In this document: one piece after another, positions 13,501 to 25,265 of the stretch
How the letters are laid out: each line of letters opens with the position of its first letter
How positions within the stretch are numbered: the stretch's first letter is position 1
Assembly: GCA_011959925.1 (NCBI GenBank)
Contig: BLMD01000280.1
Coordinates: 1-54,700, forward strand
Length of the DNA: 54,700 nt
From: Lachnospiraceae bacterium
GTDB lineage: Bacteria; Bacillota; Clostridia; Lachnospirales; Lachnospiraceae
Reading direction: 5' to 3'
Made by a program: the position numbers and the translations under genes
The notes under the pieces: model-generated
Told to the model about the DNA's origin: nothing
Databases searched by the model: none
The model's input: the letters and a program-made list of their open reading frames with translations, nothing else

Positions 13501-13875
13501 CTATACATAAATAATTTCCTCGTTCACAATCTCCCTCGCACAAGCCCTTATGTTGTTGAGCCATCCTGTCCATTCTAAGGAGTTTTCTTCCTTTAAGCGT
13601 TCCGTTATGCCCTGTGCCTGTTTCATGCCCTCTATGAGCCTGTAGGAGCGTTCCTGCGCCTGCCTGTCAATGTCGGCAAGGTATGTATTCAGCCTGCCGC
13701 TTGTGAAAAGATTGGTGTATGTAACCTTGCGGCACTGCTTCAGATAGCCCAAGTGCCTCTGTCCCCATGTGCCTATCGGCTGTTCTTCTTCGGCGGGTAC
13801 GGTTAAGCACGGTATTAAGTAATCTCCTTGCCGCTCGCATTTGCCGCCCAGTTCCTCAAAAATCGTCTTTGCCAT
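13501..13875 (-). CDS. tnpV: TnpV-family transposon protein
   Basis: A 124-residue protein of the TnpV family, first named from the Tn4451 mobilizable transposon. Features visible: MAKTIFEELGGKCERQGDYL, then PIGTWGQRHLGYLKQCRK, and a C-terminal helix with NNIRACAREIVNEEIIYV. The role of TnpV in transposition is not settled. The start follows GGAGGTAACAGACT, a strong site. It is the intact partner of the decayed copy at 11.2-11.4 kb, and the cargo between them was probably brought in with one or both. No recombinase gene is next to it. Confidence 0.85.
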   Translation of the reverse strand: MAKTIFEELGGKCERQGDYLIPCLTVPAEEEQPIGTWGQRHLGYLKQCRKVTYTNLFTSGRLNTYLADIDRQAQERSYRLIEGMKQAQGITERLKEENSLEWTGWLNNIRACAREIVNEEIIYV

Positions 13876-13994
13876 AGTCTGTTACCTCCACATTCTTTTT
13901 TATTTTGAATGTCCGTAAAATTCGTCCTACATCTTTCTACCAGCTGGTAAGAACTTTAGCTGCTGGGAAAAGGTTAATTAAATACGCTGTATCT

Positions 13995-14015
13995 GATGTG
14001 TCAACCTGACACATC
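13995..14015. repeat. Perfect 9-bp inverted repeat at the truncated end of an XRE gene
   Basis: GATGTGTCA-acc-TGACACATC spans the early stop codon of the XRE gene. There is no T run on either side, so it is not a typical terminator. Its place at the exact point where the protein leaves family sequence suggests an element junction or recombination site. Confidence 0.6.
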
Positions 14016-14216
14016 TAAAAAGGCGACAAGCTCATAAAAGATTTGTAGACTTGGGTGCTGTCCGCTGTTCTCAATAGACGCGATATAGCGCGGCGCAATG
14101 TTCAGCTTGTCCGCTAACTGGTTGCGCGATATGCCCTTTGCCTTTCTTTCTTCTTTTATGGCTTGCCCGAAAACCATAAAATCATATTTCACTTTATCCT
14201 GCTTCATATTTTTCAC
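14001..14216 (-). pseudogene. XRE regulator of a conjugative element, C-terminally truncated
   Basis: A 71-residue protein with the helix-turn-helix intact (AIKEERKAKGISRNQLADKL and RYIASIENSGQHPSLQIFYE). Family members from ICE-type elements continue for about 40 more residues after the FDVS motif; here the chain stops at FLDVSG exactly in an inverted repeat. The DNA-binding part could still function. It faces away from the small HTH gene at 14367, with about 150 bases between them, the normal place for control of divergent promoters. Confidence 0.65.
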
Positions 14217-14366
14217 CCTATTACATTTTACCGTTCACCTTTCCATCTTGGGTATGAGTACACATATCATAGTATTGACTGTAATAGAACATATCATTTG
14301 TAGCCTGTCTATTGCTATTGTTCGTAAGTCCGTATATAATGTGATTTAAGAAAGGGCGTAGATAAT

Positions 14367-14552
14367 ATGACAGAGTACGTTACAGCTTCCGAAGCAGCAA
14401 AAAATTGGGGCATTTCAGAAAGACGGGTACAGAAGCTATGCGAAGAAAACCGTATACCCGGTGTTTCTAAATTTAGTTATATGTGGCTAATACCAAAGAA
14501 CGCAATAAAGCCTGTTGACGGCAGGAGAAAAGGCGGTGTAATCAATGGATAG
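14367..14552 (+). CDS. Small helix-turn-helix DNA-binding protein (MerR/excisionase-like)
   Basis: A 61-residue protein, essentially one winged helix-turn-helix: YVTASEAAKNWGISERRVQK, then ENRIPGVSKFSYMWLIPKNA. The pattern fits the Xis/MerR-like domain that reads plasmid or element DNA. It is followed, with an 8-base overlap, by the response regulator gene, so the three signalling genes form one operon. Start after AAAGGGCGTAGATAAT. It could be a regulator of this operon or a former excisionase of the surrounding element. Confidence 0.75.
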   Translation: MTEYVTASEAAKNWGISERRVQKLCEENRIPGVSKFSYMWLIPKNAIKPVDGRRKGGVING

Positions 14553-15250
14553 TAAGATATTGTTAGTAGATGATGAAAAAGACATTGCTGATTTATATAG
14601 AAGAAGTATTGCGTCAAGATAGTTTTGAAAACATTAAGAAAGTGTACACAGGTATGGACGCTGTACAGGTATGCCGGGAATATCAACCGGACGTGGTTGT
14701 TTTGGATATTATGCTGCCGGACATTGACGGTATTGAGGTTTGCAAGCAAATACGGGAGTTCTCGTTTTGCTCTATCCTGTTTCTTTCCTCAAAGAATGAT
14801 GATATTGACAAAATACTTGGACTGTCCTGCGGCGGCGACGATTATATCACAAAACCCTTTAGTCCACGGGAGATTGTCTATCGTATCAAAGCGCAGCTCC
14901 GCCGCCAGCAATACCAGTCTGTCATGCGGACAGACGTAAAAGGGCTGCTGACTGTCGGAGGACTTGCGCTTGATAGAGAAAGCAGCCGGATTTATAAAAA
15001 TGAAAAGGAAATTGATTTGACCGGGAGGGAATTTCTGCTATTGTCTTATCTCATGGAAAATGCAGATAAAATTATCAGTAAGGAACGACTATATGAACAG
15101 GTGTGGGGGGAATACAGCAGCATTTGTGATAATACAATCATGGTACATATTCGCCATATTCGGGAAAAGATTGAAGATACCCCGTCAACCCCGAAACAAC
15201 TGATTACGATAAAAGGCTTGGGCTATAAGCTAAAGAAAAGGACTGATTAA
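14545..15250 (+). pseudogene. OmpR-family response regulator broken by a 1-nt frameshift
   Basis: The ATG at 14545 starts MDSKILLVDDEKDIADL, a normal receiver N-terminus with the acidic DD pair, and then hits a stop after 26 codons. From about 14597 the +1 frame carries all the rest: IEEVLRQDSFENIKKVYTGM, phosphate-acceptor Asp in VVLDIMLPDIDG, Lys in ITKPF, and an OmpR winged helix (LTGREFLLLSYLMENAD and TIMVHIRHIREKIED). One extra base near TTATATAGA explains the break. A restart at ATG 14570 would lack the acidic pair needed for phosphorylation. Either the gene is dead, or there is a sequence error. The histidine kinase gene follows immediately. Confidence 0.85.
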
Positions 15251-16675
15251 ATGAAGCAATCCGGCTACCGTACCACCTTTCACATATATTCCATATTCTT
15301 CTTGTCGCTGTTAGGGATGCTCCTTATGGTGTGCTGCCTTTTTGCCATGCTCATTACCGCGCCAAACCCGAACGGCAAAAATGTTCGCAGCGATTGGGCT
15401 AAAAATTTTACTTTAGATTTTTCGGACTACATTATCTTTGTAGACGGAAGCCCCACGGTAAAACAGACAGGCATAGAACGATTACAGGATAACCATATCG
15501 GACTGCAAATTTTGAACACCGCCGGAAATGAAGTATATGCGTGCCAAAAGCCTGGCAATGCACAGGACACTTACTCTAACGCTGACCTTTTACAGCTTAA
15601 TCAGACTGGACGCCTTGATACAGAGGATATGACTTCCTTTGTAGGTATTGTAACAGAGTGCAGAAAGGAATATGCCTATATTCTCCATTTCCCTATGAAC
15701 ATTCAAAAAGTAACCATGTACTTAAACGGGGAACGGTTTACAGGCGGGAAAAAAATTGTTTTCTCAACGATTGGCATTTTATTAGCAGTAATCATTTCTT
15801 TAGGGTTGGTATATGGTTTTCTTATGACAAAAACCATACGCAAATTGGTAACGTCTATACAGGATATTTCTAAACGCTGTTATCTTCCTGTTAAGGCAAA
15901 AGGCGCATTTAGGGATCTATACAATAGTCTGAATGAATTGGACGCGGGTGTAAAGACAAGCGATAAGCTGCGGGAGGAAACGGAAAATATGCGCCGGGAA
16001 TGGATTGCTAATATTACCCATGACTTAAAGACCCCACTATCCCCGATTAAAGGCTATGCGGAAGTTTTATATGATGATACAGAAAAAACAGCAGTTGAGT
16101 ACAGGCGGTATGCGGGCATTATGCTAAAAAACGCGGCATATATGGAAAATCTGATTGACGATTTAAAATTAACATGGCAATTAGAAAACGGCACACTTCC
16201 GGTAAACAGGCAGGAACGGAATATTGTCCGCTTCTTGCGGGAACTGTCCATTGATATATTGAACCGCCCCGAATACGAAAACCGCATGATTTTGTTCGAG
16301 TGCAGCGATAATATTACAGACGAAACAGCACTCTTATCCTTTGACACAAAGCTTTTTATAAGGGCGTTTCAAAATCTGATTATCAATGCGTTTGTGCATG
16401 GAACGAAAGATTCGGAAGTAACCATAAAAATCGGGGCTTCTGAAAGTGAGTTGACTATAAACGTATCAGACAATGGCGGCGGCATGAGTAATGTGGTGGC
16501 AGAACGATTATTTGAGCGATATTACAGAGGGGCAAATACGGAGAGCAAAACCGAGGGGACAGGCTTAGGGCTTGCAATCGCAAAGAACATTGTAGAGCTT
16601 CATGGCGGTACAATTTCAGTTCATAGTACCCACGGTGTTGGGACTTCTTTTCTTATCCGTTTTCCCGGCAATTAA
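15251..16675 (+). CDS. Sensor histidine kinase (EnvZ/VanS-like architecture)
   Basis: A 474-residue membrane kinase. Hydrophobic helices at about 13-36 and 169-193 flank an extracytoplasmic domain of about 130 residues. A HAMP linker follows. The H-box ITHDLKTPLSPIKGY has the phospho-accepting His257. The ATPase domain has N box NLIINAFVHG, G1 box VSDNGGGMS, and G2 box TEGTGLGLAIAKNI. All catalytic boxes are present, so the kinase looks intact although its response regulator is frameshifted. It starts directly after the regulator gene. The pairing with an FtsX exporter suggests sensing of an antimicrobial peptide or cell envelope damage, which is inference. Confidence 0.92.
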   Translation: MKQSGYRTTFHIYSIFFLSLLGMLLMVCCLFAMLITAPNPNGKNVRSDWAKNFTLDFSDYIIFVDGSPTVKQTGIERLQDNHIGLQILNTAGNEVYACQKPGNAQDTYSNADLLQLNQTGRLDTEDMTSFVGIVTECRKEYAYILHFPMNIQKVTMYLNGERFTGGKKIVFSTIGILLAVIISLGLVYGFLMTKTIRKLVTSIQDISKRCYLPVKAKGAFRDLYNSLNELDAGVKTSDKLREETENMRREWIANITHDLKTPLSPIKGYAEVLYDDTEKTAVEYRRYAGIMLKNAAYMENLIDDLKLTWQLENGTLPVNRQERNIVRFLRELSIDILNRPEYENRMILFECSDNITDETALLSFDTKLFIRAFQNLIINAFVHGTKDSEVTIKIGASESELTINVSDNGGGMSNVVAERLFERYYRGANTESKTEGTGLGLAIAKNIVELHGGTISVHSTHGVGTSFLIRFPGN

Positions 16676-16709
16676 GGTTAATTAAGGCAGGATAAAAATT
16701 TAATTAAGG
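16670..16709 (+). promoter_or_regulatory. Three AATTAAGG direct repeats (possible response regulator sites)
   Basis: AATTAAGG occurs at 16670-16677, 16680-16687 and 16702-16709, 10 and 22 bases apart, that is on one face of the helix. The first overlaps the kinase stop codon. OmpR-type regulators bind tandem repeats with such spacing. They lie upstream of the exporter genes and just before a terminator-like hairpin. Confidence 0.45.
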
Positions 16710-16753
16710 TTGACCGTTTACTATGTTAAGTGTAGGGACGGTCAACCTTTTTT
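16706..16753 (+). terminator. Rho-independent terminator or attenuator between kinase and permease
   Basis: AAGGTTGACCGT at 16706-16717 pairs perfectly with ACGGTCAACCTT at 16738-16749 across a 20-base loop, followed by a run of T through 16753. It could end the regulator-kinase transcript, leaving the exporter under separate control, or act as an attenuator ahead of a small ORF. Confidence 0.8.
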
Positions 16754-16778
16754 CTGTTTATAGACGAGGAGGTGGAAC

Positions 16779-16835
16779 ATGAAAAAGAAATCTGAAAGCA
16801 ATCGAAAATTCGTTGAAATGACGCATGGAAAGTAG
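16779..16835 (+). CDS. 18-residue ORF with strong ribosome site upstream of permease
   Basis: ATG at 16779 follows GAGGAGGTGGAAC, the best ribosome site in this region. It encodes a basic 18-residue peptide that starts MKKKSESNRKFVEM and ends at 16835, two bases before the permease GTG start. It could couple translation of the permease, which has a weaker site of its own, or be the leader of an attenuation system together with the hairpin at 16706-16753. It could also be the stub of a lost gene. Confidence 0.45.
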   Translation: MKKKSESNRKFVEMTHGK

Positions 16836-16837
16836 GT

Positions 16838-19339
16838 GTGGACTTGAAAATTATTCTAAAGTATATCTTAACAAACGTAAAAGAGCGTAAAGCAAGAACT
16901 CTCGTTATGCTTCTTTCAATCCTGCTGTCTGCTATGCTGCTGTTCGTTTCCTTTTCTATTGGCGTTTCTTATGAAAGCGCACAACGGAAAATGGCGTGCG
17001 GCATGGCGGGGAGGGCGACTGTTTCTGTTCAGAGTGTGGAGGGCGGTATTCATGCAGACGATATTCCCGCCTTGCCAGACATACAGACAAAAGCAGGCAT
17101 TGTAGAGGGTACTTCCCTTTACCATGAAAACGGATACTATGAAACGGTTGACCTCTTGGCGGCTGATATGGAAGCATTAAATCAAATCAATAAACCGCGA
17201 CTAATTGGTGACGGCGAAGTTACCGCATTTTCCGGCAATCAGATTATCTTGCCGGACAGGTTTACATCAAAATATGGCATAGAAAAAGGCGATACTGTTA
17301 CATTACAAATAAATGGTTCGCCAGTGGATTTTGAAGTAGCGGAAATTGCCGCTTATGACACAGTTTTCCTGCGTCACACAAGGGGTGCAACAGCACTTCT
17401 GCCTTTGGAAACCATAAAAGAAGTTTTGGGGTGGGAGGACGGTTATAGCGAAATTCTGATTGACCCCGCCCCAAATAGTACAACAGGAAATCTTATTTCT
17501 GAACTGAAAAATGCTCTTGATAACGGAAAGTACCGGGTATCGGAGGTTGTCAATGAATCGCAGACAGCCGCCGACGCAAGGCAGAAATCCCTGCCTTTCT
17601 TTCTAATCAGTTTCTTTTCATTAACTATGAGTATTTTTATCATTTACAGCAGCTATAAAGTCATTACCTTAGACCGTTTACCGATTATTGGCACATTCCG
17701 CAGTATCGGCGCGACAGAAAAGACCGTAACCCGTATTCTGCTTTTAGAAAGCCTGTTTTACGGCTGCACAGGCGGGTTGATTGGTATTCCTGTTGGTATG
17801 ATTGTATTAAAAGGCATCTTGCAGGGAATGGGCAAATCATTATCGCAGGGAATTGTAATCCCTGTTGTTATCTCTGTTCCCGGCGTTATTCTTTCTTTTG
17901 CAGTTGCGGTGATCGTGTCTTTGTGTTCGGCATGGCTGCCTGTCCGCAGGGCAAGCCGGCTACCGATAAAAGATATTGTCTTAGGTACGGTAGAGGAAAA
18001 GCATATTCCGCGTCCTCTGATTATCAGAATAGGGATTGTATTGTTTATCGTGTCCGCTTTGTTGCCGCACTTTGCGTCCGGCACTATGCTTTATCTTGCG
18101 GGTGGTTTTTCCCTGTTAGGTCTGATTGCTGCTACTATCCTTGTGATACCGATTTTCACAAATATAGCAAGCGCAGGATTGGAGCGCTTCTATGGTGCGG
18201 TAGCAGGAAATGAGGGCAGGATTGCCACCCGCAACATGAAAGATAATAAGAATGTCACGCAGAATATTACGCTACTGTTCATCAGCATATCAGCGATTAT
18301 TGCAATCCGTGTAGTGGGGAATTTTGTGACAACTTATATCAGCGACGTATTTCATGGCGCAGAGCTTCAAGGTTTTGCCGACGGACACATGAAGCCGGAA
18401 TTTGTGGAACAGGTAAAAGAGATGGACGGAGCAGAAAAAGTATTACCTCTTTATGTATTTAAGAACAATGTACAGGGGAATCGTGAACCCATTTCCCGTT
18501 TAGAGGGAACGGATAATTTGGAATGGTATAATTCCATGTTTGCACTTCATTACACGGATCGTCACATGAGTGAACAGGCTGCGCTCTCTTTTGCTTCTGG
18601 TGAACGGGCAGTAATTATAAACGAAGATTGCATGAAGCGGGGCGGTTTTTCCATAGGCGATACGATTACGCTGTCAAATGGAACAAACGGAAATTCCTAT
18701 GTAGTGGCAGGCAGTTTCAAATCAAGGGCAACTGATGTGGAAGCAGTCATTCCATCTATGTACGCCGTATCTGACTTTGGCGCGTCTGACTATGACCTTT
18801 TAGCTTATACCGCCGCAGACCCCGACGCAATCATGGTACAGATACGGGCTTTGTTTGGGGAAACCTCAAATTGGAGCCGTACCGTGGAGGAATTTAATAA
18901 CGACGCGCTCGCAACTGTTGGCGCATTTTTACAGCCAATGCACAGCATGACCTATTTTATCCTGCTGCTTGCGACTGTCGGCGTTATCAATAATCTTTTA
19001 ATCAACTATATACAAAAGCGGCGTACCATTGCCATGTATAAATCCATTGGACTAAGTAACCGTCAAAACAGAAAGATGACACTGATAGAGGGCTTTTCTT
19101 CCGGGCTTATCGGCGCTGTCATTGCTATTGTTGTTTCTTACATGGAAATACAGACTATTTTCCTTGTTGCGGCACCCAAAATTTCAATGACACCGGAACT
19201 GGACATTTGGACATTTCTCGTTGCGGGAACATTAGGAATTATCGTCACCCTGCTTGGCTCCATAGTACCAATTTTTAAAAGCCGAAAAATGAAACTGGTG
19301 GAAGAAATAAAATTTGAGATAGGAGGTCTTGCCAAATGA
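16838..19339 (+). CDS. Large FtsX/MacB-type ABC transporter permease
   Basis: An 833-residue permease with about ten membrane helices and two FtsX domains. The first helix (about 18-40) is followed by a 200-residue extracytoplasmic domain. Helices near 250-370 form the first FtsX unit (FRSIGATEKTVTRILLLESL). Further helices lie at 395-490, a second outside domain follows, and a last FtsX unit has IAMYKSIGLSNRQNRKMTLI. The start is the GTG at 16838, in line with the MDLKIILKYIL N-terminus and close behind the 18-residue ORF. It overlaps the ATPase gene by four bases, so they form one transporter. Such permeases export lipids or peptides, or pull on the envelope; the adjacent sensor kinase points to a stress or antibiotic role. 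Confidence 0.92.
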   Translation: MDLKIILKYILTNVKERKARTLVMLLSILLSAMLLFVSFSIGVSYESAQRKMACGMAGRATVSVQSVEGGIHADDIPALPDIQTKAGIVEGTSLYHENGYYETVDLLAADMEALNQINKPRLIGDGEVTAFSGNQIILPDRFTSKYGIEKGDTVTLQINGSPVDFEVAEIAAYDTVFLRHTRGATALLPLETIKEVLGWEDGYSEILIDPAPNSTTGNLISELKNALDNGKYRVSEVVNESQTAADARQKSLPFFLISFFSLTMSIFIIYSSYKVITLDRLPIIGTFRSIGATEKTVTRILLLESLFYGCTGGLIGIPVGMIVLKGILQGMGKSLSQGIVIPVVISVPGVILSFAVAVIVSLCSAWLPVRRASRLPIKDIVLGTVEEKHIPRPLIIRIGIVLFIVSALLPHFASGTMLYLAGGFSLLGLIAATILVIPIFTNIASAGLERFYGAVAGNEGRIATRNMKDNKNVTQNITLLFISISAIIAIRVVGNFVTTYISDVFHGAELQGFADGHMKPEFVEQVKEMDGAEKVLPLYVFKNNVQGNREPISRLEGTDNLEWYNSMFALHYTDRHMSEQAALSFASGERAVIINEDCMKRGGFSIGDTITLSNGTNGNSYVVAGSFKSRATDVEAVIPSMYAVSDFGASDYDLLAYTAADPDAIMVQIRALFGETSNWSRTVEEFNNDALATVGAFLQPMHSMTYFILLLATVGVINNLLINYIQKRRTIAMYKSIGLSNRQNRKMTLIEGFSSGLIGAVIAIVVSYMEIQTIFLVAAPKISMTPELDIWTFLVAGTLGIIVTLLGSIVPIFKSRKMKLVEEIKFEIGGLAK

Positions 19340-20022
19340 ACATATTAACAGAGGAAGTTGCCATTGAGGGCAAAAATATAATTAAAGACTTTCAGCTTAG
19401 TGATACCAAAACAAGAGTGCTGAAAAACATATCGCTGAAAGTGATACAGGGTGAATTTGTTTCCATCATGGGACAGTCCGGCTCTGGAAAAAGTACGCTG
19501 CTTTATATTCTCGGAGGGCTTGATGTACCTACAAGCGGCTCTGTCTTTATGAACGGCATGGATATTTCAAAATTCAATGATGAAAAAATGAGCCGGATAA
19601 GGCGGCAGAATATAGGATTTGTTTTTCAGTTTTACAACCTTATCCCCAACTTGAATGTGGCAGAAAATATCATGCTTCCGCTTTTGTTGGACGGAAAGAA
19701 AATGCGGGACTACAAAAAACCTCTGAAAGATATTTTAGAGGTAGTCGGCTTATCGGACAAACGAGGGCATACACCCCGCGAATTGTCCGGGGGACAACAG
19801 CAACGTGTGGCAATCGCCCGCGCACTAATTGGAAATCCCGAAATCCTGTTTGCAGACGAACCTACGGGAAACCTTGATAGTCATACAGGAGCAGAGATAA
19901 TGAGTTTGTTGCAGCGTATCAACAAGGAACGCGGACAGACAATTATCATGGTTACTCATTCACCGGAAGCGGCGAAAAGCAGCAACCGTGTTATCACCGT
20001 AAGTGACGGACTGCTTCAATAA
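19336..20022 (+). CDS. ABC transporter ATPase (LolD/MacB type)
   Basis: A 228-residue ATPase. Walker [11 protein letters not shown]-loop in [12 protein letters not shown], signature LSGGQQQR, Walker [11 protein letters not shown]-loop NLDS and H-loop VTHSPE are all present. The ATGA overlap with the permease gene shows translational coupling. The protein is the motor of the exporter; it is the last intact gene before the cut integrase. Confidence 0.95.
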
Positions 20023-20045: not shown

Positions 20046-20201
20046 ATGCAATCTGCCGGACGACGGCAAAGAAACATTGATGACCTTGTGATCTGCAAGC
20101 CTAACGGAGCGCCCCAAGCCGCCAACTGGATTTCAACCGGCTTTGGTAAACTGCTGGCGGGCCTCGATATGCCGCATATCCGCTACCATGACTTACGGCA
20201 C
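20046..20201 (+). pseudogene. Tyrosine integrase, central piece (left of insertion)
   Basis: From about residue 10 of this frame the product reads LVICKPNGAPQAANWISTGF, then DMPHIRYHDLRH, a tyrosine recombinase up to the HxxR motif. The normal next residues are TAATNM. Here the reading is broken after the CAC codon at 20199-20201 by foreign DNA. The N-terminal domain is also absent upstream, so the gene was already truncated there or the ABC operon replaced it. The matching downstream half is at 25095-25265. Confidence 0.9.
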
Positions 20202-20300
20202 CCGTATGTCAAGCCCACGACAAAAAAATTTATAACTTTTATTGAAGTTTTTCGGGCAGCTTCATAGCTGCCCATAGCTGTTTCAAATGGGTGTTCACGG

Positions 20301-20496
20301 TTATACCTCCTTTTCGGATTCCTTAGTTTCTAAGAAATCCTGTGTTGCATATTCAATCTCAATCCGATCTCCTGGAAAGACGTAAACTTTGTTGATAAGC
20401 CGGTCAATCAGAGCTTTCGTCAGCATGTTGGCGTTTCCGACTTCCTGCACAATTTCCTGTTGTTTCAGCTTAATCTCATAATCACTTTTCCTATAA
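20301..20496 (-). pseudogene. C-terminal remnant of a large serine recombinase
   Basis: The minus strand reads SDYEIKLKQQEIVQEVGNAN, then LIDRLINKVYVFPGDRIEIE and YATQDFLETKESEKEV before TAA at 20301-20303. This is the tail of recombinases that move clostridial mobilizable elements. The catalytic N-terminal domain and zinc-ribbon part are gone; homology stops near 20496. Position at the left edge of the inserted element supports that this was its own recombinase. Confidence 0.85.
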
Positions 20497-20547
20497 ATTC
20501 ACAGCTGATTAGGAAAAAAGAGTCGATAACACAAGGGGTCTTGTGTG

Positions 20548-20754
20548 CTATCGGCTCTGCGTCTGTGCGTCTGGCTCTTTGATAACAGTAACTTCTAAAT
20601 GTTTGATATTTACAAGAAATTCCTTTTTGCATTTCGGGCAAAACAATGGAAAATTCTCTAAAACTGAATCTGTTCTGATTTTTGTACGGGTTTTACTCTG
20701 ACATATTGGACACAGCACCCAATGTTCAAGCTGCATGGCATATCTCTTTTCCAT
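20548..20754 (-). CDS. Cysteine-rich KTR domain protein
   Basis: A 68-residue small protein with two CPxC knuckles (LCPICQSKTRTKIR and LFCPKCKKEFLV), likely a zinc ribbon. The KTR motif and the ending IKEPDAQTQSR match the small Cys-rich KTR family found on Firmicutes mobile elements. The function of the family is not known. The start may instead be the Met at 20736, six codons in; neither has a strong ribosome site. Confidence 0.8.
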   Translation of the reverse strand: MEKRYAMQLEHWVLCPICQSKTRTKIRTDSVLENFPLFCPKCKKEFLVNIKHLEVTVIKEPDAQTQSR

Positions 20755-20760
20755 AGGCAG

Positions 20761-20928
20761 TTACTTTGTAACAATGGGTTTTCCATCTTTATCAATTAAA
20801 GGACAGATACCAGCACCCGCACCAAACTTTGCAACAAGATAATTGACACCGGTTTCTTTATCTACCACCACATAAAACCCCTTTACACTTCCAGCGGTTT
20901 CGGTAATTTCAAATCTCTTATTTTCCAT
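20761..20928 (-). CDS. DUF6440-like small protein
   Basis: A 55-residue ORF starting MENKRFEITETAGSVKGFYV and ending DKDGKPIVTK, preceded by a perfect GGAGGT. It contains NYLVAKFGAGAGICPLIDKD, the pattern I recall for the DUF6440 family, whose role is unknown. It sits between the KTR gene and the ABC permease on the same strand and is probably the next gene of that operon. Confidence 0.8.
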   Translation of the reverse strand: MENKRFEITETAGSVKGFYVVVDKETGVNYLVAKFGAGAGICPLIDKDGKPIVTK

Positions 20929-20956
20929 ATAGATACCTCCTAACTATTCAAAAAAA

Positions 20957-21604
20957 TCAAATTTCTTGCTTTGCAAAAATACGATAACTGATTTGATACA
21001 TCACATAGCACCACGCTAATGCCAAAAGCGGAGAGCAACAGAGAAGAATAAACACAAGCTGATCGGTCAGCGCAACTCCTAATGTAGCAAGAAGCTGATA
21101 TACTCCAAAACAAATCCCTGCCGGAATAAGGAAAGATACCAACAACAGGACGCGGCCTCTTTCTGCTCCAAACTTGAATACAAGAGGAATTGACATACTA
21201 CCAAAAATCAGAGCAATTACCCATGAAATCAAGGTCAAAAATAAAAGTTCTCCAATCCCTATAAGGTCAAGCGTGATTTTATTTGAGATAAGGCCGCCGA
21301 TAGAACCAACAACCAGTCCAAAGAGGCTGCCAACAGCGCAGAAGATAGCCAGTACAATAAATTTTCCGCCCACCAATTCTTTCTTGGAAACTGGCATAAT
21401 CATGGCATATCGTGTCCACTTAGAATTATCGTCAAAAGAGAAAGTTGTTACAATCATCATGCTACACAGAATGGCGCACACAAAGATATAACCTTCAACA
21501 CCAGAAAACGGGATAAGGGCAATAGCAAAAACCAAAAGGATGAACAACATAGATTTGGCATTATAACCGATATTCAATAAATCTTTCAAAACAAGGCTTT
21601 TCAT
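20957..21604 (-). CDS. ABC-2 type transporter permease
   Basis: A 215-residue membrane protein with six hydrophobic segments. The opening SLVLKDLLNIGYNAKSMLFI and the loop with RYAMIMPVSKKELVGGKFIV are typical of small ABC-2 permeases. It overlaps the ATPase gene by four bases, so the two assemble as one exporter under the GntR gene upstream. It resembles the permeases of YtrBCDEF-type systems that respond to cell-wall antibiotics. Substrate unknown. Confidence 0.88.
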   Translation of the reverse strand: MKSLVLKDLLNIGYNAKSMLFILLVFAIALIPFSGVEGYIFVCAILCSMMIVTTFSFDDNSKWTRYAMIMPVSKKELVGGKFIVLAIFCAVGSLFGLVVGSIGGLISNKITLDLIGIGELLFLTLISWVIALIFGSMSIPLVFKFGAERGRVLLLVSFLIPAGICFGVYQLLATLGVALTDQLVFILLCCSPLLALAWCYVMYQISYRIFAKQEI

Positions 21605-22461
21605 TTAGCTTGATCTCCTTTCACATACAGCAGCAGAATATCATCAATCGTTGCATCATCCACTACGGCATTTTTATATTTTCTTTTGGCCTTTTCCTTA
21701 TCAGCTACCAGAACATTCCATTGGTAATCGTCTTTACGGTAGGCCAGAATTTCGTCTTTGTCCAACTGATCGAACAGAGCTGCCCCACAGCGAATAATAC
21801 CGTAGTTATAACGGAGTTCATCTTTCGTTTTGCAGAAAAGGACTTTTCCTTGATGAATAAAAGTAATATAGTCTGCAACTTTTTCTAAATCCGTTGTGAT
21901 ATGCGAGGACATCAAAATAGAATGTGTTTCATCCTGCACAAAGTCGAGGAACACCTCAAGAATATCATCCCGCATTACAGGATCAAGTCCACTGGTGGCT
22001 TCATCTAAAATAAGCATCTTCGGTTTATGTGAGAGTGCGAAGGCAATGCACAGCTTCATTTTCATACCTTTGGATAAAGTTTTGATTTCTTTATCCAAAG
22101 GGAGCTGAAAGTGTTTCAGATATTCCTGATATAAATGTGCATCCCACTGTTTGTAGGCCGTTCTACCGATTTTTCCGACTTTGGCAGGGGTGAGAGTTTC
22201 ATAGAAGTTAATCCCATCGAACACCACTCCAATATCCTCTTTGAGCTGTTTCGATCCCGATAACTCCTGCCCCCAAAAAGTGACAGTTCCCTCGTCCTTA
22301 TAGATTAAATCAAGAATGGCATTGATAGTCGTACTTTTTCCAGCTCCATTTTCACCAATCAACCCCATAATTGCTCCTTTGGGAACCGAAAACGAAACAT
22401 GATCTAATTTGAAGCCATCGTATTGTTTTGTTAGGTTATTAACCTGCAAAATAGAGTCCAT
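21601..22461 (-). CDS. ABC transporter ATPase of a GntR-controlled exporter
   Basis: A 286-residue ATPase. Walker A GENGAGKST, signature LSKGMKMKL in place of LSGGQ (common in this branch), Walker B MLILDEATSGLD, and H-loop MSSHI are visible. A C-terminal domain of about 80 residues follows, as in YtrB-like proteins. The start is two bases after the GntR stop, and it overlaps the permease gene. Confidence 0.93.
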   Translation of the reverse strand: MDSILQVNNLTKQYDGFKLDHVSFSVPKGAIMGLIGENGAGKSTTINAILDLIYKDEGTVTFWGQELSGSKQLKEDIGVVFDGINFYETLTPAKVGKIGRTAYKQWDAHLYQEYLKHFQLPLDKEIKTLSKGMKMKLCIAFALSHKPKMLILDEATSGLDPVMRDDILEVFLDFVQDETHSILMSSHITTDLEKVADYITFIHQGKVLFCKTKDELRYNYGIIRCGAALFDQLDKDEILAYRKDDYQWNVLVADKEKAKRKYKNAVVDDATIDDILLLYVKGDQAK

Positions 22462-22463
22462 AG

Positions 22464-22841
22464 TTAATCCTCCTCTTGATAAAACATCGTCAGTAATTCA
22501 ACCAATTTTTCTAACGATATTCCACTTGTTCGGCCAATATCAGCCGCTTCCTGCAAATGTTCTTCAGCCAATCTCTGCTGTTCTTCTTGATAAAAGTCTT
22601 TGTTCTGTGCCGACACAAAACTGCCTCGACCAACTGTTGTTTCTATAAACCCGTCCCGCTGCAAATCTTCATACGCCTTTTGGACGGTAATGACACTCAC
22701 ATGAATGGATTTTGCCAGTGCCCGCATAGAGGGAATCGGGTCGCCAGTTTTCAGTTCACCACTCATAATCATGGCTTTTATCTGCGAAGTTATTTGCTCA
22801 TAGATTGGCTTGCTGGTATTGCTACTTATTATAATTTCCAC
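22464..22841 (-). CDS. GntR-family repressor (YtrA subfamily)
   Basis: A 125-residue one-component regulator. The winged helix is clear: PIYEQITSQIKAMIMSGELK, PSMRALAKSIHVSVITVQKA, then YEDLQRDGFIETTVGRGSFV. The C-terminal part is only about 50 residues, which defines the YtrA subgroup. The start is the GTG at 22841 (AGGAGG seven bases before); a longer frame upstream would run through the promoter. It is the first gene of the operon with the ABC ATPase and permease, and probably represses it through a site near 22861-22885. Confidence 0.9.
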   Translation of the reverse strand: MEIIISSNTSKPIYEQITSQIKAMIMSGELKTGDPIPSMRALAKSIHVSVITVQKAYEDLQRDGFIETTVGRGSFVSAQNKDFYQEEQQRLAEEHLQEAADIGRTSGISLEKLVELLTMFYQEED

Positions 22842-22884
22842 TACGCCCCTCCTTTGTTTTATAGTGTGCTTATTGAACAAGTAC

Positions 22885-22913
22885 ATTATACACAAGTTGG
22901 GTGGCCTTGTCAA
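22885..22913 (-). promoter_or_regulatory. Perfect consensus sigma-A promoter of the GntR-ABC operon
   Basis: On the minus strand TTGACA (22913-22908) and TATAAT (22890-22885) are separated by exactly 17 bases. Downstream, between the -10 and the gene, a spaced dyad (GTAC..GTTCAATAAGC) is the likely GntR operator. A perfect promoter needs a repressor, in line with the gene it drives. Confidence 0.9.
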
Positions 22914-22956
22914 CAAAAGTATGTCAATAAATGAGGATAAACTACTGGCAAGCAAT

Positions 22957-23017
22957 GCAATCTTCCGTAAGATTGCGTATTTTGGCAGGAATCCCTTTCC
23001 GGTATTCCTGCCAAAAT
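22957..23017. repeat. Two adjacent hairpins between mobilization remnant and cargo
   Basis: First hairpin: GCAATCTT-ccgt-AAGATTGC at 22957-22976. Second: ATTTTGGCAGGAAT (22979-22992) pairs perfectly with ATTCCTGCCAAAAT (23004-23017) over an 11-base loop. Only two bases separate them. Neither has a T run, so a simple terminator is not the best fit. They could be an origin-of-transfer or replication-origin structure, or the leftover of an inserted cargo boundary. Confidence 0.7.
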
Positions 23018-23053
23018 GCTTGTTGGTGACATATCCCCAAACCCCTGAGATCA

Positions 23054-23353
23054 TCACCTGCGGTAATGGCTGCGCGTTCCGTTAGAACGCCGAAAAACAA
23101 AAGAGAGCTGTTTTAAGTTGAACACCTTCGCCCAGCGTTCATACCCCGGACCTTTGCCGGAACGGATCGCCGCCTCAATATCCACCAGCAGCCCGACTTT
23201 GGAAACCGGCTTTTGTGGGGAGGTACGGCGGGGCTCCGCCGTCCGCGTGCCGGCGATCCGTTCTTTCAGCACCCCAGGCTCATGGAACTGCAGGTAAGCA
23301 AACAGGTCCGCCTCCCTCGCCGCCTGAATCTGCTCTTTGCTTACGCCGGGCAT
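23054..23353 (-). pseudogene. Fused remnant of primase-like and relaxase-like proteins
   Basis: A 99-residue frame made of two unrelated pieces. The first 35 residues (VSKEQIQAAREADLFAYLQF) match the start of element-borne DUF3991/primase-like proteins. From about residue 50 the text changes to KVGLLVDIEAAIRSGKGPGY and ERWAKVFNLKQLS, a segment found inside large mobilization relaxases. A deletion that joined the two genes would give this. It then drifts into unrelated sequence and stops. No function is expected. Confidence 0.6.
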
Positions 23354-23421
23354 AGTGCCGGCACAGAATTTCTTTTCATCGTGCCCCGCCTCCTGTGATG
23401 AAAAAAGACGCCCGAAGGCGC

Positions 23422-24280
23422 CTAACAGCCGTATAGGTCGTGATTGACCTCGGCACGGTAATAACTGTCCATTGTTGCCGGGGCATTATACAGCTCTGCC
23501 AGCAGGTATGCCTTGATATTTCCGACTTTTGTGGTGTTCTTGTCAATACAGTCAAAGACATACTCCAGGTGGCCGGAATTGATCTTCAGGAAACGGCCCT
23601 TTACCACCTCCCTGGGAAAATCATCCCCGGCAATACGGATATATGGCCGCTTGGACAAAACAACTTCAAGCATAAGCTCCATAGTCTCGTCTAAGCGTTC
23701 TTTCCCATAACGGGAAACCATACAGTCATACTCAATATTTTCTTTAATGATCTCGCGGTAGGCGTCTGTCAGCTCTATCCGGGCGGCCTGCCGCCTCCGG
23801 CTCTGCCGGATAGATTGATTGATGGGTCCTTGATATATCCGTTTTTGATTTTTTAGTCCTTAGTGGATTAGTATTTAATTGTGTGGGATTTTCCTGTCCA
23901 GGTTCGGCCTGTTCAGGTTTTGCCTGTCCTGGATTTACCTGTCTTGGATTTTCCCGTTTAGGTGAATACTCCCGTTTTTCAGCATTTACAGGCTTTTCAT
24001 GGATCGTATACTCAATGTCTCCGAGCTGTCCGTTCCCATAGCGGAGGCGCTGCCTGGTGAGATACCCGTGCCGCTCCAGCTCTTTCAGGGCGGTAGTGAT
24101 CGAATCCACGCCATCCTTACAGATATGGGCGAGCCCCTTTGTGGTATAATCCCAATCTTCCGGCAGCGACAGCATGAGCGAGAGGAGCCCCTTTGCCTTT
24201 AAGGACAGTTCCGTATTGCGCAGGTGGTGGTTGCACATGATCGTGAAGTCCTTTGTTTTTTCTACCCGGAATACAGCCAT
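23422..24280 (-). pseudogene. Element replication initiator-like gene (HTH plus DUF6017) with frameshift
   Basis: From the ATG at 24280 the protein opens with a helix-turn-helix domain (FRVEKTKDFTIMCNHHLRNT, LSLKAKGLLSLMLSLPEDWD, ITTALKELERHGYL). A low-complexity linker of repeated PGQ-like units follows (RQVNPGQAKPEQAEPGQENP). The frame then slips near 23785 in a GC-rich run; the next frame reads RIELTDAYREIIKENIEYDC and the DUF6017 tail, ending AELYNAPATMDSYYRAEVNH. One base indel restores a single gene of about 285 residues. Such proteins are common on Clostridia mobilizable elements. The tail is the same family as the fragment at 3.6-3.8 kb. Confidence 0.75.
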
Positions 24281-24309
24281 AACAAAAACCTCCTTCCTTT
24301 TCCTCCGGG

Positions 24310-24540
24310 TTACAAGGCGCGGTCCCTGCGGTCATAGTGCAGATGGCCGCCCGGTGCAACCTTCGCATGGTTTTTCAGTCTGACCTCGCCCCGTTCCTGG
24401 CTGTCTAAAAATTTCTGGTAGCCGGCATCCGTAAGGAACAGGCGCATCTTGTCGCCTTTATCCCCGACAGGGGCTTTACCTGAAAGCACGTCAAAGACAA
24501 TCATGTGCTTTACTTCCGGGTCAAAGCGCTCCAGAGCCAT
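24310..24540 (-). CDS. Conserved element-associated small protein
   Basis: A 76-residue protein starting at the ATG at 24540 (MALERFDPEVKHMIVFDVLS), preceded by AAGGGGTATGAC. It continues KMRLFLTDAGYQKFLDSQER and ends with NHAKVAPGGHLHYDRRD. It is soluble and basic. I recognise it as a small protein that repeatedly travels next to the initiator gene on such elements, but its activity is unknown. It lies 18 bases downstream of the next gene on the same strand. Confidence 0.7.
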   Translation of the reverse strand: MALERFDPEVKHMIVFDVLSGKAPVGDKGDKMRLFLTDAGYQKFLDSQERGEVRLKNHAKVAPGGHLHYDRRDRAL

Positions 24541-24558
24541 GATGTCATACCCCTTCAA

Positions 24559-24834
24559 TTACTCCGCGCCGGATTTCTGCCTGGCCTCTGCCAGTAGTTC
24601 CCCCATCGTCTTAGGTCCTGCCGGAATCCGGTAGTTTTTCCGAATATCCTGAATGAGCGCCAGACAGTCTTTTTCCGGCATGGCGTCCAGCTTTCGCATA
24701 AGCTCCTCCGCCGTTTTCCTCTTTACCGGGTCCGGTATATAGGGGAGGCACATGCGCAGCTCATAAGTGACATCTGATTTCCCATAGCCTTCCGTCTGGA
24801 AGATCAGGCGCTTTTCCATTTCGTTCAGTTCCAT
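24559..24834 (-). CDS. Transposon-transfer assisting-like small protein
   Basis: A 91-residue acidic, helical protein starting at the ATG at 24834 (MELNEMEKRLIFQTEGYGKS) after AGAAAGGAGATTCAT. It ends PKTMGELLAEARQKSGAE. The shape and context resemble the small putative transposon-transfer assisting proteins of clostridial elements. That assignment is by analogy. It is the first gene of the leftward set inside the inserted element. Confidence 0.65.
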   Translation of the reverse strand: MELNEMEKRLIFQTEGYGKSDVTYELRMCLPYIPDPVKRKTAEELMRKLDAMPEKDCLALIQDIRKNYRIPAGPKTMGELLAEARQKSGAE

Positions 24835-25094
24835 ATGAATCTCCTTTCTCCTGAAAATGGATATGAAAAAAGGGCGTCCACATATAAAAGTGAAACGCCC
24901 ACGGCAATCAGCGGCCAGGCAATACACCGGACCGCTGGCGTTATTAAATTTTGTCGTTAATGAAACAGCCTCCTTTTTTCGATATTTTTCTCGTCAGATT
25001 TCAACTTGGAAAAGGAATTGAATAAATGACGGCAAACGCTCAAACCCCTTGAAAATAAAGGCTTTTTCCGTTTGTCGTTATTATACCGTAATGG

Positions 25095-25265
25095 CACACG
25101 GCGGCAACGAACATGCACCAACTCACCGGCGACTTTTACACGGTAGGCGAAGTGCTGGATGCCTACCATGCCGCCGTACACCCCCAGCCAAAACAGGCGC
25201 GACAAACCACCCCGAAACAGGATAAACAGACGTCCAAGAGAAAATCCCCTGAAATGACGCTGTAA
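25095..25265 (+). pseudogene. Tyrosine integrase, C-terminal piece (right of insertion)
   Basis: In frame with the left half through the shared CAC codon, this reads TAATNMHQLTGDFYTVGEVL, then DAYHAAVHPQPKQ and a lysine-rich end, stopping at TAA 25263-25265. GEVLGHT would be the expected continuation; here EVL jumps to DAYHAAV, so the stretch with the second conserved His and the catalytic Tyr has been deleted as well. The integrase was thus inactive even before, or lost this part after, the insertion. Confidence 0.85.

Follow-up and report, generated by a model that had tools for sequence, protein, structure and literature searches.

A serine-recombinase element family of gut Clostridia whose predicted target is the box-II motif of tyrosine recombinases

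Serine-recombinase elements in the genes of other mobile elements

Insertion of one mobile element into a gene of another has been described for several serine-recombinase systems, and here we describe a locus of a Lachnospiraceae bacterium in which the gene entered encodes a tyrosine recombinase, the integrase of another element. The locus lies within 20046-25265 of contig BLMD01000280.1, of which the first 54,700 nucleotides were analyzed (hereafter the window), and consists of two tyrosine recombinase pieces with a 4,896-bp insert between them, the cut falling between HDLRH and TAATNM. In tyrosine recombinases the HxxR of this sequence forms the catalytic box II, upstream of the nucleophilic tyrosine. 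The closest described systems are integrative and conjugative elements (ICEs) of streptococci that carry serine-integrase triplets, disrupt genes, show repeats of 2-8 bp and in some cases contain ConjTn1549 modules (Ambroset et al. 2016, PMC4701971; this and the comparisons that follow refer to the accessible parts of the articles cited). Those ICEs resemble the elements described here in having three serine integrases and in disrupting the gene that they enter, and one of their targets, traG, itself belongs to other ICEs. Two of their marks recur in our family, namely a tandem triplet at one end, seen in relatives of the insert, and an in-gene disruption with a 2-bp CA repeat. However, the streptococcal triplet targets are mutT, traG and hsdM, without any tyrosine recombinase, whereas here one motif is entered across many integrase families.

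Other described elements are also specialized on mobile genes. Serine-integrase integrative and mobilizable elements (IMEs) reside in traG, maff2 and snf2 of Tn5252-type ICEs (Coluzzi et al. 2017, PMC5357655), and IME_Rho_tet resides in MAFF2 genes, which make up 116 of its 256 sites and span 48 clusters (PMC12904643). Both are, like ours, serine-recombinase elements specialized on the genes of other mobile elements, but their targets are genes of a single ICE superfamily or a small open reading frame (ORF) rather than the active-site motif of an enzyme superfamily. A Tn1806-like ICE was found by conjugation experiments to nest in snf2 of ICESpy009 (PMC12942858), which is likewise site-specific nesting of ICE in ICE, although in another target gene and host group. 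Large serine recombinases (LSRs) that are near-identical and yet enter several unrelated target gene clusters have been called multi-targeting when they have more than three target clusters, with LSRs clustered at 90% and target genes at 50% (Durrant et al. 2022, PMC10083194); the worked example in that study has a TT core and A/T-rich sites, whereas the core here is CA. Elements that disrupt the genes of other elements are, then, already known. No report of an integrase active-site motif as an insertion target was found in the open-access literature, as far as its texts were accessible. We propose, with a probability of roughly 90%, that the insert belongs to a serine-recombinase element family of gut Clostridia whose target attachment site (attB) is the DNA of the box-II motif of tyrosine recombinases, HxLRH-(T/S)xA. 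By its sequences the family is widespread and integrative, appears conjugative in an apparently intact relative (genome G282), and has its recombinase triplet beside one end.

A split tyrosine recombinase and the recurrence of its junctions

The N-side piece of the window integrase (20079..20201, plus strand) is 90% identical over 41 amino acids to residues 342-382 of an intact ORF, L015. It reads ...MPHIRYHDLRH at 20201, where element sequence takes over, and the ORF that holds it (20046-20267, plus strand) continues beyond 20201 with the element-coded PYVKPTTKKFITFIEVFRAAS. The C-side piece of the same recombinase (25095..25262, plus strand; HTAATNMHQLT...) begins HTAATNMHQLTGDFYTVGEVL. Searches with either piece led to the same intact relative on an IMG/VR contig (L014 and L015 are one), a 476-codon frame with an unbroken MPHIRYHDLRHTAATNMHQLTGDFYTVGEVLGHT that joins both pieces gaplessly as ...YHDLRHTAATNMHQLTGDFYTVGEVLGHT... 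A preliminary description of this stretch had proposed an integrase gene split with an in-frame continuation, which is borne out given that the uninterrupted allele continues LRHTAATNM in the same frame. Its claim that removal of 4,896 bases rejoins one frame holds as well, in that the His that closes the left piece and the one that opens the right piece align with the same residue, 382 of L015. The GGCAC that it noted on both sides is present (20197-20201 and 25093-25097, spaced by 4,896 bases), but the core common to the targets is only CA.

Both pieces also carry damage separate from the insert. Roughly 300 N-terminal residues of the integrase are missing from the left piece, which places another rearrangement boundary near 20046-20079, and about 36 residues are gone from the right piece between GEVL and DAYH. 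In genome G310, a decayed relic (L005, 1438-1746) has the same loss of about 36 residues, reads HDPRHTSATN and has no insert at the HxxRH codon, which suggests that the right half was damaged before insertion or that a damaged allele spread. Neither window piece, taken singly, matched a Pfam family. No close second copy of either was found in the window's own genome, where the left piece has one 36% match, and in a tblastn search of plasmids the left piece reached 45% at best and the right piece had no match. An intact integrase relative was found in none of 15 genomes of the window's genus at E 1e-40, a search that is uninformative on absence.

Further insertions at the same codon, as the preliminary description had envisaged, proved numerous in searches with the element ends. 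The right-end pattern GTCGTNATTATACCGNAANGGCA stops at the core and the left-end pattern TTGTCGTGNGCTTGACATACGGG excludes it; both are exact, so that diverged copies were missed. At least 119 stretches of the genome collection carried the right end; the 80 titles listed among them include Lachnospiraceae, Oscillospiraceae/Ruminococcaceae, Christensenella and one Collinsella. Among 397 sampled genomes of the family to which the window belongs, its own genome included, the right end occurred at 12 places in 8 genomes and the left end at 12 places in 10, and neither the reversed control of the right-end pattern nor the left-end control pattern had a match in the same 397 genomes. The viral collection contributed 22 stretches with the left end and four with a longer right pattern that requires YAC too. 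Once identical target flanks were merged, 141 right and 38 left matches corresponded to at least 122 and 32 distinct junctions; these totals are lower bounds and the taxa partial. Three of the 122 right junctions (L016, L025, L026) stem from the viral scan with the longer pattern, L016 and L007 were first retrieved through the integrase piece, and one extra left junction with a slightly different end (L148) stands outside the 32.

The sequences that adjoin these ends are for the most part tyrosine recombinases, cut at one codon. By our reading of the translations, 110 of 120 informative right junctions (two of the 122 stop at a contig edge) enter the C-terminal half of a tyrosine recombinase in frame from the same His codon. 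Pfam Phage_integrase matches 88 of the 111 right pieces of at least 30 amino acids, the 11 of 122 shorter ones having been excluded, as were the 5 of 32 left pieces below 40. A strict C-half motif is present in 87/111 right pieces compared with 81/12,654 random CAY frames from the same loci, control frames among which true sites may be found. We relied on this motif given that a looser one, present in 100/111 right halves, also occurs in 17% of random frames. On the other side, H.[LI]RH ends 27 of the 32 distinct left junctions, compared with 27 of 8,299 control frames drawn likewise from the same loci, and two more left junctions clipped by a contig edge still read LRH and DLRH. Among 27 left pieces, phrog_1 matches 19, Pfam Phage_integrase 15 and Phage_int_SAM_3 13; one (L172) has an NYN match followed by integrase domains in the same frame. 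The XerC model matches 12/27 and XerD 11/27, and housekeeping Xer genes may be among the targets. The suggestion that such elements recurrently enter the integrases of other ICEs was right but too narrow, given that phage-type integrases are also entered. This recurrence also bears on the concern that the window locus is an assembly artefact, which might be raised because its genome is a fragmented draft of 418 contigs. Both junction types recur in independent genomes, including G282, a genome in one contig that holds a whole 70-kb element, and we give the artefact practically no credence.

Both ends are visible in three insertions: the window copy, L051 (3.5 kb, another internally deleted derivative) and G282:C1:700352-770389 (70 kb). 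The integrase halves of L051 and G282 meet on the same His of intact relatives, which is residue 319 of L206, 305 of L207/L208 and 312 of L209. The common codon might have been inherited from a single ancestral insertion, the element and the integrase piece having travelled as a unit. Target type and element do recur together at some loci (there are several HTAATNMHQLT copies), and the G310 relic has the internal deletion of the window's right piece. Against this, when the 107 integrase-like right halves of at least 34 amino acids are compared over their first 34 residues, identity thresholds of 90, 70 and 50% yield 79, 47 and 19 clusters, and the median pairwise identity of 110 integrase-like right halves is 35%. 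In four elements, the third recombinase is 97.9-99.6% identical, while the N-side pieces of the four host integrases are only 27-44% identical, figures that also place the family within the definition of multi-targeting given above. Similarly, 52 of 67 pairs of integrase-borne elements with at least 90% DNA identity over 900 bp sit in targets less than 50% identical. Near-identical elements in diverged integrases imply independent insertions and exclude a single ancestral one, an alternative that we regard as very improbable. We also considered whether the integrase fragment is the element's own part, given that L016 and L007 share the window's piece, and rejected this because the other right flanks are unrelated integrases.

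Recombinase triplet, element ends and target motif

In relatives of the window copy (L147-L149), three tandem serine recombinases of 560, 549 and 521 amino acids (stop-to-stop frames) lie beside the left end, and the full triplet is present in 10 of 13 distinct left loci with at least 4 kb of element. It is absent from the window copy, where only 62 amino acids of one recombinase are left. The 70-kb element of G282 also has the triplet; its recombinases are 32-33% identical to each other, and each contains PF00239, PF07508 and PF13408 (Resolvase, Recombinase and zinc ribbon) together with YIRLS, a YxRxS motif. Elements still target the box-II motif where identity falls as low as 54% in the third recombinase and 51% in the second, and an S. 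agalactiae record matches recombinase 3 at 31%. A TraG/VirD4-type coupling protein is encoded in G282 and in L022. The G282 element additionally encodes DUF3801, LPD1, DUF6017, DUF5720 and Toprim proteins, as well as VirB4-like, relaxase-like and topoisomerase-like ORFs that were judged by eye only.

Comparison of the junctions defined the ends of the element. The left junction core CA (20199..20200, plus strand) is the first two bases of the His codon; the base before it varies with the target, and the element sequence CCCGTATGTCAAGC starts at 20201. The right junction core CA, from the same comparison, lies at 25095..25096 (plus strand). On the minus strand, the left end (20201..20223) reads TTGTCGTGGGCTTGACATACGGG, with 25 nt from TTGTCGT to the core TG inclusive, and the right end TTGTCGTTATTATACCGTAATGGCA (25072..25096, plus strand) likewise measures 25 nt from TTGTCGT to the core CA inclusive. 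The TTGTCGT arms of the two ends are inverted, and their equal distance from the core places CA at the center of the predicted attP. A comparison of element ends for a core dinucleotide, as had been recommended, showed that CA is common to the ends and to nearly all targets, with one exception, CG, in 30 left flanks. As a separate observation, TTGTCGT occurs twice in direct orientation in the last 150 bp of the right end (24951 and 25072) and once inverted at the left end (minus strand of 20201-20223); the inner copy at 24951 may serve as an additional binding site for a recombinase.

Introns and inteins classically reside at conserved active-site codons, and a homing-type insertion, self-splicing or endonuclease-driven, would accordingly be a reading of the common codon. 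Inverted arms around a 2-bp core at the ends speak against it, as do the recurring triplets and a 70-kb insert that has conjugation genes and a triplet beside its end, and we consider a homing-type or intron-like insertion to be improbable in the extreme.

In targets other than the window integrase, CA is preceded by CGC, CGT, CGA, AGA or AGG and followed by T or C. On the left of the target, information is highest at bases within the codons for His, Leu, Arg and His, with six positions at 1.8-2.0 bits, and on the right the GC of the Ala codon stands at 1.5 and 1.2 bits, whereas the third positions of the Leu and Arg codons hold only 0.1-0.3 bits. CA(-14,-13), T(-7), G(-4) and the core CA are present in 28 of 30 left junctions with enough flank, and at the right CA is followed by C in 50% and by T in 48% (n=120). 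The Arg codon before CA at the left is CGG in 14 cases, CGT in 3, AGA in 3, AGG in 2, CGC in 2 and CGA in 2 (n=26). In the window's own genome, 14 distinct integrase sites with the motif were found among 26 loci examined, and none of 15 rows from that genome (two of them for one site) has CGG as its Arg codon, compared with 14/26 of the left targets; this excess, in which host composition is not controlled, hints at a preference for the DNA itself.

Several findings weigh against the proposed element family with box-II DNA as its attB. The motif is lacking in 3 of 32 left junctions (L163, L173, L180), and no Pfam family was found in L163, L173 and L178 among nine left pieces rescanned. Among the 120 informative right junctions, ten lie outside integrases or have no clear integrase reading, and one of these (L129) adjoins an element end 98-100% identical to integrase-borne ones. 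The left flank of an element in G340 (L023), although one of the 27 with H.[LI]RH, has no integrase reading, yet the DNA of the motif, CACTGCCTCCGTCA, is present, which speaks for DNA and not a property of the gene as what is recognized; the two flanks of that copy are mismatched, which marks it as rearranged. Element contents vary, and DUF5720/DUF6017 genes are absent in 19 of 55 integrase-borne right loci with at least 900 bp of element. The empty site in a close relative that the preliminary description had called for exists only in part: intact integrase relatives were found elsewhere, at the family level, but an empty site at the occupied locus was found in no near-identical strain, for either the window or G282. 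For G282, 23 genomes of its genus held no same-locus empty site and only homologues 40-54% identical.

The junctions outside recognizable integrases, a minority, would fit a looser multi-targeting in which integrases are only the survivors, hits in dispensable mobile genes being tolerated, and serine recombinases that enter many target genes are on record (PMC10083194, in its accessible part). Loose targeting would not, however, concentrate hits in one codon of one motif with six left positions at 1.8-2.0 bits. We therefore judge it unlikely, if the least so of the alternatives, and prefer the box-II motif DNA as attB.

Under this preferred reading, one serine recombinase of the triplet would recombine the element attP with box-II DNA in the gene of a resident integrase, with a predicted crossover at the CA of the second His codon and an attP whose TTGTCGT arms are symmetric about CA. 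Recognition would proceed via the conserved codon positions (on the left CA, T, G and CA, on the right GC in the Ala codon), with wobble bases tolerated, and such tolerance would allow one recombinase system to enter many phage and ICE integrases. The target would be split between HxxR and the catalytic Tyr and must be inactive, given that box II is parted from the nucleophile. The site had been called a safe target, which is apt for the cell but not for the interrupted element, whose integrase is inactivated. Recombination by serine recombinases is conservative, so that precise excision would restore the target integrase.

The decayed insert and the biology of the family

The window copy is a deletion derivative, most likely inserted first and then internally reduced; its recombinase catalytic domains and conjugation genes have gone, and it is probably immobile. 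The serine-recombinase tail reported at its left edge is confirmed as all that is left of the triplet's third large serine recombinase, its C-terminal 62 amino acids plus stop (20301..20489, minus strand; 98% identical to the C-terminus of the 521-aa recombinases). Cargo genes follow on the minus strand for an ABC-2 membrane protein (20957..21604, PF13346), an ABC transporter ATPase (21601..22461, PF00005) and a GntR-type regulator (22464..23057, PF00392). The right module (23264..24927, minus strand) is broken and comprises a Toprim/DUF3991 remnant, HTH_36 and DUF6017 parts in two ORFs (23744-24280 and 23422-23721, minus strand, by Pfam) and a DUF5720-type remnant in two ORFs; the Toprim and DUF5720 labels are taken from the DNA match to L016 and from Pfam results for the corresponding L197 genes.

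The right 1.9 kb of the insert matches the end of a larger element, in L016, with 79.7% DNA identity over 1,917 bp, and this part of the insert is 93.9-97.0% identical over at least 900 bp to eight other copies, all in other integrases. In blastn, each of the 72 integrase-borne right loci with at least 300 bp of element matches the right module of the window copy, in some cases over the last ~150 bp only. The 19 loci without a DUF5720/DUF6017 gene in the 3 kb or less examined (e.g., L032, L042, L044) keep the right terminus, and several types of element may share the end and recombinase module.

Some further observations concern the surroundings of these elements. Upstream of the insert, window 13501-20022 holds a TnpV gene; a two-component system and an FtsX-type ABC transporter are encoded between that gene and the integrase piece. 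In G176, two left ends with the same integrase flank lie in opposite orientation 52 kb apart (G176:C2:177443 and 229730), which suggests duplication or inversion. In G397 (L019-L022), a family element has phage-like genes beside or inside it on the same contig, as read from ORFs, which points to possible nesting of mobile elements on several levels. The left end of the window element (20201-20267) gives the truncated integrase a short in-frame tail, PYVKPTTKKFITFFEVFRAAS, and similar tails or variants of it occur in L147, L148, L149, L196 and L051.

We considered, as a tentative and rather doubtful extension, that the family could be a specialized parasite of other mobile DNA that, by entering the motif common to tyrosine recombinases, pins rival prophages and ICEs, with excision as a reversible switch of their mobility. 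In this scheme the truncated integrase, which keeps the DNA-binding half and gains an element-coded in-frame tail (PYVKPTTKKFITFFEVFRAAS or one like it), might even block the att sites of the target element in a dominant-negative manner.

In summary, our findings suggest that one class of site-specific recombinase addresses the active-site motif of the other class, a target that is present many times in the window's genome. This would explain how a wide target range is kept by a single specificity, and it points to serine recombinases with a wobble-tolerant attB in a coding motif. Some annotated "split integrases" would then be landing sites rather than products of random decay, and the conflict between mobile elements would become directly testable.

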